DNA from: Streptomyces sp. SID8374
GTDB lineage: Bacteria > Actinomycetota > Actinomycetes > Streptomycetales > Streptomycetaceae
Reading direction: 5' to 3'
Length of the DNA: 64,000 nucleotides
Assembly: GCF_009865135.1 (NCBI RefSeq)
Contig: NZ_WWGH01000002.1
Span: 1,922,001 to 1,986,000 of the forward strand
Part shown: one piece after another, positions 29,056 to 33,059 of the stretch
Numbering within the stretch: position 1 is the first letter of the stretch
How the letters are laid out: each line of letters starts with the position of its first letter
The notes under the pieces: model-generated
The model's input: only the letters and a program-made list of their open reading frames with translations
Told to the model about the DNA's origin: nothing
The model's database searches: none
Made by a program: the position numbers and the translations under genes

Positions 29056-29718
29056 TCAGCGGGTCTCGACGAGCCGGGCGAAGACCACCACGTTCCCGTC
29101 GTAGCCGCCCGCCTTGGAGTAACCGCCGCCGCAGGTGATCACCCGCAGCTCCGCGTGGCCCGTGTCGCCGTAGACCCGGGAGCCGGGGAAGTCGTTCTTG
29201 GAGAAGACCTCGACCCCGTACACCTCGAAGACGCCGACCCGGCCGTCGTACCGCTCCACCTCGACGCGGTGGCCCTTCTGGAGCGAGCCGAGGCCGTAGA
29301 AGACCGCGGGCCCGGAGTTGTTGTCGACATGGCCGACGACCACGGAGGTGCCGCGCTGCCCGGGGGCGATGCCGTTCTGGTACCAGCCGGCGAGGTTGGG
29401 GTCCTCGGCCGGCGGGGCGTCGATCCAGCCGTCGGCGTCCAGGTTGACGTCGATGATCGGGGCGTCCACGTTGATGGTGGAGATCTTCACCCGGGAGGCG
29501 GGGGCGTACGGCAGCGGCTGCACCGGCTCGCCCTCCACCGGCGGCCCGGCGGTGTCGCTGCCCAGGTCCAGCGAGGCGGCGGCCGCAGGCTGCGGCGGGC
29601 CCTCGTCCCCGAACTCCGCCCCGTTGCGCAGCAGGGCGAGGCCCGTGAGCATGACCAGGGCGACGGCACCCCACGGCACGCGTCTGGTCCGCTCGGCGCC
29701 AGCGTAGTCCCGGCCCAT
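29056..29718 (-). CDS. Class F sortase
   Basis: The 220-residue protein has an N-terminal membrane anchor (about 15-30), a disordered Pro-rich linker and a sortase beta-barrel (about 75-220). The catalytic residues are visible: H130 in VVVGHVDN, C196 in LRVITCGGG and an Arg (R215) in FARLVETR. Class F (often called class E/F) sortases are typical of actinobacteria and attach or process surface proteins. Two secreted proteins with matching C-terminal tails lie directly upstream (30090 and 30673) and are candidate substrates. Confidence 0.9.
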   Translation of the reverse strand: MGRDYAGAERTRRVPWGAVALVMLTGLALLRNGAEFGDEGPPQPAAAASLDLGSDTAGPPVEGEPVQPLPYAPASRVKISTINVDAPIIDVNLDADGWIDAPPAEDPNLAGWYQNGIAPGQRGTSVVVGHVDNNSGPAVFYGLGSLQKGHRVEVERYDGRVGVFEVYGVEVFSKNDFPGSRVYGDTGHAELRVITCGGGYSKAGGYDGNVVVFARLVETR

Positions 29719-30089
29719 GGTGCTCCCTTCGTCGCGACGCTTGGAACGTTAGGGGTGCCGCGGCCGGGCGGCGATCAGGGAGAGGCGAACGGGTGGCGGG
29801 CGGAACCCGGGCCTCCGGGCCGACCGCGCCGGGGCCTTGAGGCCGACCTCACCGGGGCTCCGGCGTGACTGCCCTTCGGAGTAATGAGCAGATAAAAATT
29901 CTGACGGCCTGTGACCTGCGGCTCCGTCGGACGCAGGGGTTTTCGTACGGCGTGTCGTGTCACCGGGGTGGAGCAGTGCCGAAGTGCGAGCCGTCGACCG
30001 GCTGGTGAGTGTTCGTCATGGGAGGCGTTCACGTCGATCCATTCCCGGAGGACAGGACTCCGGGGCGTTTCCCGCTGGAGGTCCACACG
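29719..30089. other. Intergenic region between the sortase gene and a secreted-protein gene
   Basis: 371 bp separate two divergent genes. The central part (about 29875-29910) is rich in A/T (TAATGAGCAGATAAAAATTC) against a GC-rich background and is the likely promoter area. No ORF, repeat or RNA gene is supported. Confidence 0.4.
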
Positions 30090-30572
30090 ATGCGTGCTTC
30101 ACGCGCTCTCGCGGTCACCGTGACCGCTTTCGCAGCTGTCGGGCTCGCCGCCCCCATGGCCGCGGCCACCAACGGTCCGGTCAACGTCGCCGTCAACCCG
30201 CAGTCGGTCCACCAGGGCGGCACGCTGAAGATCACGGCTCGCGGCTGCGGTCACGGCGGCACGGTCTGGTCGAACGCGTTCCCGACGACCAGCCTCTCGG
30301 CGGGTGACGGCACCAACTACGCCCACGCCCGCGTCCGCGACAACACCACGCCGGGTCACTACCACCTCTCCGTGAAGTGCAGCGACAACGACCGGATCGC
30401 GACGCACAAGTTCACCGTGCTCGCCGGCAACGGCGCGCAGGGCGGGCTCGGCGGCTCCATGGGCCCGAACTCCACCGAGATGCAGGTCGGCGGCGGACTG
30501 GTGGCCGCGGCGGCCGTCGGTGGCGCGGTCTTCCTCGTCCGGCGCCGGCGGACGAGCCATGCGGCCTTCTAG
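30090..30572 (+). CDS. Secreted protein with C-terminal membrane anchor, paralogue of the facing gene
   Basis: The ATG at 30090 follows CTGGAGG. The 160-residue product has a signal peptide (cleavage after MAAA, about residue 26) and a small Ig-like beta domain with one Cys pair (C53, C97; motifs GGTLKITARGC and YHLSVKC). It then has a conserved tail: GGLGGSMGPNSTE (118-130), a hydrophobic helix (about 133-150) and RRRR. The tail has the layout of a sortase signal or membrane anchor but lacks LPxTG. The convergent gene at 30673 encodes the same architecture with the same tail. Adjacent to the class F sortase. Confidence 0.75.
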   Translation: MRASRALAVTVTAFAAVGLAAPMAAATNGPVNVAVNPQSVHQGGTLKITARGCGHGGTVWSNAFPTTSLSAGDGTNYAHARVRDNTTPGHYHLSVKCSDNDRIATHKFTVLAGNGAQGGLGGSMGPNSTEMQVGGGLVAAAAVGGAVFLVRRRRTSHAAF

Positions 30573-30605
30573 GACGTCGGACCTCCCGCCTGGCCCGATA
30601 CGCCC

Positions 30606-30641
30606 GTCGCCCCGAGTCCTGCGGTCAGGACCCGGGGCGAC
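30606..30641. terminator. Terminator between the two facing paralogues
   Basis: Arms 30606-30621 and 30626-30641 pair over 16 positions with one mismatch around a CGGT loop, between genes ending at 30572 and 30673. Confidence 0.75.
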
Positions 30642-30672
30642 TGTCGTGCGTTCCACCTCGGACCTCGCGCCT

Positions 30673-31236
30673 TCAGTGCCGGCGGCCGGCGCCGCGGCGC
30701 CGTACGAAGTAGAGGGTGCCGGTGGCGGCCGCGAGCACGAGGGCCGCGCCCGCCGTGACCTCCGCCGTGTTCATGGCGCCGGAGCTGCCGCCGAGTCCGC
30801 CGCGTACCCCGCTCGGCGCGATGGCCGTGGAGCTGACGGTCGGGGCCGTGGTCGGAGCGGTCGTGGGCGTCGGCGTGCTGGTGGCGCCCCCGGTGATGGT
30901 CAGGTTGACGTTGCGGGTGGTGCCGGTGGAGCCGCAGGCGAACGTCACCGCGTAGACCGCGCCCCGCCGGGCGTCCGTGTCGACGGTGGCGGTGGCCGTG
31001 GTGCTGCCGCTCGGGATGACGGTCGTGTCGAAGATGCCCGAGGTGACGGTCGTCTCGCCGGTGCACCCGCCGCCGCCGAGGGTCACCCGGCCGCCCGGAG
31101 CGATCACCGAGGGGGAGATCGTCGGGTTGAACGTGTTGATGGCCCCGTCCGGCGCGGCGTGGGCGGCGGACGGAGCCAGCAGGGTGAGGGCGGTGGCGCC
31201 CAGGAGTGCGAGGGGTGCGACACGTATCGCGCGCAT
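30673..31236 (-). CDS. Secreted protein with C-terminal membrane anchor, paralogue of the facing gene
   Basis: The ATG at 31236 has GGAGGAT just upstream. The 187-residue product has a signal peptide (to about residue 28), an Ig-like domain with C58 and C101 (GGRVTLGGGGC; VYAVTFAC) and a Thr/Pro linker (about 118-140). Its tail carries GGLGGSSGAMNTAE (146-159), a hydrophobic helix and RRRGAGRRH. The tail motif GGLGGSxGxxN[ST]xE is shared with the product of 30090-30572, and the two genes converge on a common terminator. Function unknown; surface display near a class F sortase is likely. Confidence 0.75.
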   Translation of the reverse strand: MRAIRVAPLALLGATALTLLAPSAAHAAPDGAINTFNPTISPSVIAPGGRVTLGGGGCTGETTVTSGIFDTTVIPSGSTTATATVDTDARRGAVYAVTFACGSTGTTRNVNLTITGGATSTPTPTTAPTTAPTVSSTAIAPSGVRGGLGGSSGAMNTAEVTAGAALVLAAATGTLYFVRRRGAGRRH

Positions 31237-32198: not shown

Positions 32199-32810
32199 TC
32201 AGCGGGACGATCGGGGCCGCAGCACGGCGACGGCGAACACCGCCGGGGCGGTGATCAGCAGGGTCGTGGACACCAGCGAGGGTCCGCTCCGCGGCTCCTT
32301 GCGGGTCGCTTTGCGGTACGTCGGAAGCGCCACGGGCCGCGCCTCCGGCGGCTTCGGCCGCACCGAGGGGGTCGGTGACGGCTTCGGCGCCGGCCTGGGT
32401 GCGGGCGCGGCCTTCCGCACGGGCGCGGCCTTAGGCACGGGTGGTGGTGGCGGCTCCGCTGGAGGTGGTGGCGGAGGAGGCGGCGGGGGCGGTGGTTCCG
32501 GCGCCGGGGGCGGTGGGGGAGGCGGAGGTGGGGGCGGTGGCTCCGGTGGCGGTGGCGGAGGAGGCGGTGGTGGCGGGGGAGGGGGCGGTGGTGGCTTCGG
32601 GGGCGGCGGGGGTGGTGGGGGCTCCGGAGGGGTGACCACCACGCACTTTCCGCTGCCCGCCACGGCGACCGCCGTGCTGCCGTCGTCCTGCCCGATGGTG
32701 GCCACCGCGCAGGCGTCGGCGGTCGCGGGCTGCGGTACGGCTATCAGCCAGACGAGTGCGGCGGCTGTCGAGAGCCGCCCGATGCGGGATCCGTACACGA
32801 GCGGGAGCAT
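32199..32810 (-). CDS. Secreted proline-rich protein
   Basis: From the ATG at 32810 the product is about 203 residues. It has a signal peptide, a short domain with two Cys (DACAVATIGQDDGS...GKCVVV), then about 65 residues that are almost pure proline interrupted by Glu, Lys and Ala. A basic Pro/Ala/Lys linker follows, and a C-terminal membrane helix (STTLLITAPAVFAVAVL) with a basic end RPRSSR. Extended polyproline rods can span the cell wall. It is first in an operon with the DUF4239 gene. Function unknown. Confidence 0.65.
   Translation of the reverse strand: MLPLVYGSRIGRLSTAAALVWLIAVPQPATADACAVATIGQDDGSTAVAVAGSGKCVVVTPPEPPPPPPPPKPPPPPPPPPPPPPPPPPEPPPPPPPPPPPPAPEPPPPPPPPPPPPAEPPPPPVPKAAPVRKAAPAPRPAPKPSPTPSVRPKPPEARPVALPTYRKATRKEPRSGPSLVSTTLLITAPAVFAVAVLRPRSSR
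32440..32640. repeat. Low-complexity GGT/GGC/GGA tract encoding polyproline
   Basis: The plus strand is an unbroken mix of GGT, GGC, GGA and GGG triplets, read as proline codons on the minus strand. It is coding low complexity and not a CRISPR or tandem satellite; length may vary between strains. Confidence 0.8.
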
Positions 32811-33059
32811 GATCCAGGTCGTCCGGCGACACGCGCGACTCCGCGGGGATTCGCCTGATGGTGGGACAATGAGCCGTTCATGTTTGCGCACGGTTGACGC
32901 TTCCGCAGCTGTCCGGCCCCCTGGCCCGATGCGTGCTCCGCCGAATTCTTCTCGGCCCGCTTTGAACGCCACCCCCGTGACGCCGCGTACCTAGGGCCAT
33001 GAACGGCGCGGACTCGCGCCGCCATCGGAGCGATACGACGACGTACTACGGGAGTCGAC

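Follow-up and report, generated by a model that had tools for sequence, protein, structure and literature searches.

A class F sortase locus in Streptomyces with a candidate sorting signal that has glycine in place of threonine

In Streptomyces sp. SID8374, a class F sortase lies beside two genes for predicted secreted proteins, which we call TpA and TpB (for tail proteins A and B), and both proteins end in a tail with the motif GGLGGS. From sequence comparisons, we think it probable that TpA and TpB are surface proteins and that the neighboring sortase reads their G[AV]xG-G-L-GGS tail as a class F sorting signal with glycine instead of threonine at P1 (the fourth position of the motif). The locus suggests a possible threonine-free way of fixing proteins to the bacterial wall. 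The window (the whole stretch of 64,000 nucleotides that we analyzed) contains these features:

29056-29718, minus strand: class F sortase (srtF), 220 amino acids, matching NF033748 and PF04203
29335-29337, minus strand: codon for Val128 of the sortase, two residues before the catalytic His130
29719-30089, no strand: intergenic region between the divergent genes for the sortase and TpA
30090-30572, plus strand: TpA, 160 amino acids, predicted to be secreted, with a C-terminal tail like a sorting signal
30432-30458, plus strand: TpA motif GAQGGLGGS, with the predicted P1-P1' bond at the first GG (from alignment with T-G tails and equal spacing to the arginine cluster)
30486-30539, plus strand: C-terminal hydrophobic helix of TpA, from a hydrophobicity scan, followed by RRRR
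30673-31236, minus strand: TpB, 187 amino acids, predicted to be secreted, with the same type of tail
30784-30810, minus strand: TpB motif GVRGGLGGS

TpA and TpB are convergent, and TpA and the sortase are divergent. A scan of 29650-30150 found neither a sigma-70-like promoter nor a terminator in the intergenic region (29719-30089). The gene order, the sortase's score against NF033748, and the recurrence of the trio all agree with an earlier note on this DNA, which described a class F sortase beside two facing secreted proteins with a shared GGLGGS tail. The architecture that it gave for the two proteins also holds: each has an N-terminal hydrophobic stretch, which we took by eye to be a signal peptide, two cysteines (at 53 and 97 in TpA), the GGLGGS motif, one C-terminal helix, and an arginine tail. 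Thr/Pro-rich and Gly-rich linkers precede the tails (the linker in TpB is Thr/Pro-rich). The longer motif proposed in the note, GGLGGSxGxxN[ST]xE, fits TpB but does not fit TpA as written, where the corresponding stretch (GGLGGSMGPNSTE) is shorter by one residue; across orthologues, only GGxGGS and a later glutamate are retained. The note's Ig-like domain is not backed by any Pfam match. Indeed, Pfam identified no domain in either protein, nor did phmmer in TpA, and the best sequence match to a solved structure was to a bacterial immunoglobulin domain with E = 0.43.

As a bare DNA pattern, GGLGGS is uninformative (41 matches in the 7.78 Mb genome versus 60 for a reversed control), and we did not use it. 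Also encoded beside the trio (32199-32972, minus strand) is a proline-rich secreted protein that has a C-terminal helix and lacks the glycine motif; in another genome, the trio has a similar neighbor in a comparable position (L075, 4648-5292, minus strand).

The sortase scores 207.9 bits against NF033748 (the cut-off is 166) and matches PF04203 with E = 8.7e-22. It has an N-terminal transmembrane helix (residues ~16-31) and a catalytic domain (residues ~66-220) that includes His130 and Cys196; GH130 and TC196 are kept in at least 97% of 109 aligned sortases. We set aside a predicted model of the full-length protein (pLDDT 52.5). A model of residues 66-220 (pLDDT 71, pTM 0.74) matches solved sortases, with the best Z score (13.6) for a class A sortase and a Z score of 12.1 for SrtF from Corynebacterium diphtheriae (5uus). 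By sequence, a profile of close orthologues did not reach any solved class F structure. The position 13 residues after the cysteine, which is Arg197 in SrtA, is a conserved asparagine in these class F sortases (Asn209; 29092-29094, minus strand), a point against our proposal; R192 and R215 are other candidates for the catalytic arginine.

To study the conservation of the locus, we scanned genome contigs with the sortase alone and took the best 80 of 152 loci, all of which are named Streptomyces. Within these best 80 loci, TpA adjoins the sortase in 78 and TpB in 77. TpA is missing from L241 and L303 and TpB is missing from L241, L248, and L303; L248 and L303 have less than 1.2 kb of upstream sequence. 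(L241, a contig of S. griseus NCTC13033, has the sortase without TpA or TpB despite 3.2 kb of upstream sequence, and a second contig from the same set of records, L242, has TpA.) P1 is glycine in all 78 of the TpA orthologues from these loci and in 76 of the 77 TpB orthologues; in the remaining TpB row, the parsing picked up sequence from outside the motif. The most variable site of the TpA motif is x (P2), which is the counterpart of X in LPXTG. Among 74 orthologues of TpA, GAxGGLGGS is one of the best-conserved blocks (1.00 for G115, G118, G119, G121, and G122, and 0.99 for S123), while nearby residues are less conserved (0.46 for A112 and 0.57 for N114). Because of this conserved block, and because the trio recurs at nearly all of the 80 loci, we consider the motif to be above chance. 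In a more divergent set of orthologues, P1 of TpB is often alanine (as in GVHAGEGGS), and one TpA orthologue (L027) has valine. Of 101 genomes of the genus, 90 encode TpA or a homologue (E 0.001). In L263, L266, and L272, TpA has Gly/Asn-rich insertions, tens of residues long and specific to the strain, that either follow the signal peptide or precede the tail.

The tails can be aligned by the distance from the P1' glycine to the arginine cluster, which has a mode of 31 residues whether P1 is threonine, glycine, or alanine (T, G, or A tails). The spacing is 30-31 in all 25 T tails. Of the 115 G tails, 81 have a spacing of 31, 32 have 33, and 2 have 30; among the 31 A tails, 25 have a spacing of 31. 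Because this spacing is common to all three types, we place the first GG of the motif where other tails have TG. The scissile position in both TpA and TpB is then Gly-Gly, and the Thr-Gly of the GVDTG type is absent. NF058571 (GVDTG_CTERM) scores 17.5 bits for TpA and 21.7 bits for TpB (a sub-threshold match that covers residues 143-181), and neither reaches the cut-off of 29 bits. Some orthologues from the same locus do exceed it, such as TpB from G066 (31.6 bits) and TpA from G024 and G093 (31.3 and 31.9 bits). The LPXTG anchor model TIGR01167 matches TpA at 12 bits, below its cut-off of 15.9, and does not match TpB at E up to 10. The earlier note's statement that there is no LPxTG-type motif is literally true, but it overlooks that the tail is still laid out like a class F signal, with the threonine replaced. 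The tail is probably a P1 variant (Thr to Gly or Ala) of the GVDTG-type class F signal that NCBIfam already models as NF058571.

The same kind of tail is attached to other proteins. A 15-row profile of G/A tails (A1), run on 296 genomes of the class with E 0.001, has matches in 38 of them. We fetched 40 tail loci that had no neighboring sortase listed or that were outside the genus; a sortase was absent from the fetched stretch in 36 of these and present in 4 (L171, L177, L206, and L207). One locus (L170) encodes a TpA/TpB pair with no sortase in the fetched stretch. The carriers of these orphan tails include 183-residue proteins with two cysteines, larger Cys-rich proteins, Excalibur-like proteins (named by eye, as the Pfam score is 10.3 bits versus a cut-off of 22), and TpA-like secreted proteins. 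In L207, from another genus, the tail belongs to a sortase neighbor that we judged by eye to be CHRD-like and that has no Pfam match. The same tail on unrelated domains is the pattern that a sorting signal would be expected to show.

At L100, L101, L103, L105, L106, L112, L122, L125, L126, L168, and L169, TpA-like proteins end in GAARGG[LMT]GGS and the fetched sequence contains no class F sortase. These proteins are possible substrates in trans.

Alternatively, the tails might be plain membrane anchors: the helix would hold TpA and TpB in place, the glycine motif would be a flexible or helix-capping spacer, and the sortase would act on other proteins. The linkers before the tails are consistent with this explanation, as is the absence of the P1 threonine that is common to the natural signals described in the available portions of the papers we cite. 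However, the motif ranks with the best-conserved blocks and recurs on unrelated domains, the register and the spacing are the same in T tails as in G/A tails, and adjacency to a class F sortase occurs repeatedly. We consider simple anchoring unlikely, although it is the strongest of the alternatives to a sorting signal.

If the tails are sorting signals, then several sortases might use them, as this genome encodes six class F sortases. There is a tailed secreted protein beside each of the six, and the four matches to TpA in the genome at E up to 0.02 (including TpA itself) are all beside class F sortases. P1 is glycine in the window, threonine at L014 and L017, alanine at L015 and L016, and probably alanine at L018. 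The TpA homologue at L014 has a tail ending in HVRTGVGGSVEPNSTQ and the sortase neighbor at L017 has a tail ending in GVETGGGTT; both of these tails exceed the cut-off for NF058571 (39.3 and 30.7 bits versus 29). The tails at L015 and L016 have a longer spacing (38) and look like a different subtype.

Across the 296 genomes of the class, 175 encode a class F sortase. The earlier note had argued that its idea would fail if the tail motif were common in genomes without class F sortases; we found motif-covering matches in 31 of the 175 genomes with a class F sortase and in none of the 121 without (Fisher p = 2.8e-8, ignoring kinship). Matches were counted as motif-covering if they started at profile position 7 or lower, and T tails were counted along with G/A tails. 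Since 25 of the 31 tail-positive genomes are Streptomyces, the co-occurrence is confounded by genus. We excluded six tail-positive genomes without a class F sortase (G147, G150, G163, G198, G212, and G298) from the count, since their matches start no earlier than profile position 15 and lie in the helix. Within Streptomyces, 99 of 101 genomes have a class F sortase, commonly in four to eight copies, and 23 of the 101 lack a sortase of the clade found in the window (P0002 under 219 bits). The tails in those 23 genomes are mostly of the T type. Nonetheless, orphan G/A tails do occur in three of the 23 (G017, G032, and G089), which contradicts a clean rule that genomes without the clade's sortase have no G/A tails, and we dropped that rule. 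In two others (G037 and G047), a G/A tail adjoins a different class F sortase, and the tail in G075 is degenerate and TpB-like.

In a tree of 109 sortases, the T and the G/A labels of the neighboring tails change just 4 times each, versus means of 19.6 and 27.2 after shuffling, although near-copies help to lower these counts. (The tree omits the second sortase of L018, which does not have the pattern that was used for trimming; nine labels added afterwards by reading the neighbors brought the labelled rows to 108, with L082 left unlabelled.) That tail type follows the sortase clade argues against the idea that the tails are sorting signals for another enzyme, either one or several other class F sortases acting redundantly or a class E sortase, perhaps with a different scissile bond, such as one within LGGS. 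The six sortases in the genome, the orphan G/A tails in genomes without this clade, and the conservation of GGS all speak for that idea, while the alignment to T tails, in which the first GG coincides with the T-G bond, speaks against the other bond. We give it a low probability, behind simple anchoring.

Because of the conserved adjacency, the modularity, the spacing, and the co-occurrence, we favor the view that the tail serves as a signal for the neighboring sortase. The earlier note had suggested that the motif may be a new sorting or protease-processing signal for this enzyme; the role as a signal is supported, but it is new only in part, as a P1 variant of the NF058571 signal. It is very improbable that a different protease, such as one of the rhomboid type that acts in the GlyGly-CTERM/rhombosortase system, processes the tails and that the sortase is an incidental neighbor: the glycine-rich motif, helix, and basic tail do resemble the GlyGly-CTERM layout (PMC3237569), but class F sortases are recurrent neighbors, and at E up to 10 the GVDTG model matches both proteins and the LPXTG model matches TpA, while no GlyGly-CTERM model is among the matches (the library may not include TIGR03501).

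The sortases beside the two types of tail differ at residue 128. It is alanine in all 23 sortases beside T tails; in the 85 beside G/A tails, it is valine in 76, alanine in 5, threonine in 3, and aspartate in 1. By the GH motif, we take Val128 to correspond to residue 118 of SrtA from Staphylococcus aureus. At 13 further loci, residue 128 is alanine in 6 of the 7 sortases beside T tails (the other has tyrosine), and beside tails with a small P1 residue it is valine in 2 of 6, alanine in 1, and something else in 3; L225 had no sortase match. We singled out residue 128 after ranking the discriminating columns, and its covariation with tail type was not significant after correcting for kinship: the residue changes just twice on the tree, and the 2-4 pairs that are independent are too few to reach significance.

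We propose the following mechanism. TpA and TpB would be exported, which is seen solely as their hydrophobic N-termini, and the helix and arginine cluster of the tail would retain them in the membrane. The neighboring class F sortase would then bind G(P4)-[AV](P3)-x(P2)-G(P1), with valine rather than alanine at residue 128 perhaps filling the space of the missing threonine side chain. Cys196 would attack the P1 carbonyl, so that the G-G bond is cut, and the cleaved protein would be passed to an amino group of the cell wall. As the orphan tails are modular, the sortase may also serve G/A-tailed proteins that are encoded elsewhere in the genome. More tentatively, we suggest that some class F sortases form a natural clade that reads G[AV]xG-G (with glycine or sometimes alanine at P1) in place of xxT-G, that the change from alanine to valine at the position of SrtA residue 118 is a P1 switch, and that this forms a genome-wide system for a modular, threonine-less tail on several families of secreted proteins in Streptomyces.

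The physiological roles of class F sortases were described as unknown in a 2026 mBio paper on Actinoplanes missouriensis (PMC13251363). In that species, secreted, tail-anchored proteins without a pentapeptide are encoded next to srtF and were proposed as possible substrates, and, in the portion of the paper available, they were taken no further for want of the pentapeptide. Sporangium formation was normal in a quadruple srtF mutant (PMC13251363), which we count against our proposal. In the literature that we searched, which leaves subscription journals largely outside, we found no description of a class F signal with glycine at P1. Screens for threonine-containing pentapeptides overlook likely class F substrates; the screen in A. 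missouriensis, as reported in that portion, set aside two neighbors. A testable rule for finding candidate substrates would be a protein beside a class F sortase that has G-x-x-[T/G/A]-G some 31 residues ahead of an arginine cluster, and such a rule would open the function of these enzymes to study. A natural enzyme that accepts glycine at P1, if real, would in addition provide an orthogonal tool for ligation.

Among known systems, the GVDTG sorting domain (NF058571) shares a tripartite C-terminal tail with TpA and TpB and aligns over the entire GGLGGS tail. Many of its best matches in Streptomyces adjoin class F sortases, and these include homologues of TpA. It differs in having, by the model's name, threonine at the fourth position, where the tails in the window have glycine. 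AMIS_11010 and AMIS_36440 of A. missouriensis are, like TpA and TpB, secreted proteins with a transmembrane segment and a basic tail, without a pentapeptide, beside a class F sortase (PMC13251363); the comparison is by description, as no motif is given in the available part of that paper. The LPXTG and LAXTG signals of classes A-E share the free P2, the hydrophobic helix, and the basic cluster, but TpA and TpB lack both the Leu-Pro/Ala and the threonine. According to the available part of PMC5148588, the signals of all sortases characterized by 2016 had a conserved PXT core, with LAXTG as its own exception at P3. The GlyGly-CTERM tail has a similar Gly-rich motif, helix, and basic tail, and it is processed by a rhomboid-family protease and is widespread in Proteobacteria and rare outside them (PMC3237569).

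A precedent for such specificity comes from the laboratory. The catalytic histidine of S. aureus SrtA is His120 (PMC5148588), and in evolved SrtA, residues 104, 118, and 182 jointly set the activity and the specificity at position 4 of the motif (reviewed in PMC9126251). The lab-evolved SrtA-beta, with S118I, recognizes LMVGG, and eSrtA(4S-9), with A118T, accepts LPEXG where X is alanine, cysteine, or serine (PMC9126251). Both combine a small P1 residue with a change at residue 118, as the sortase in the window may do; they differ in that they were engineered from S. aureus SrtA and in that residue 118 became isoleucine or threonine instead of valine. The parallel between residue 128 and SrtA residue 118 is an attractive analogy, and if it is true, the threonine-free clade would be a natural match to SrtA-beta.
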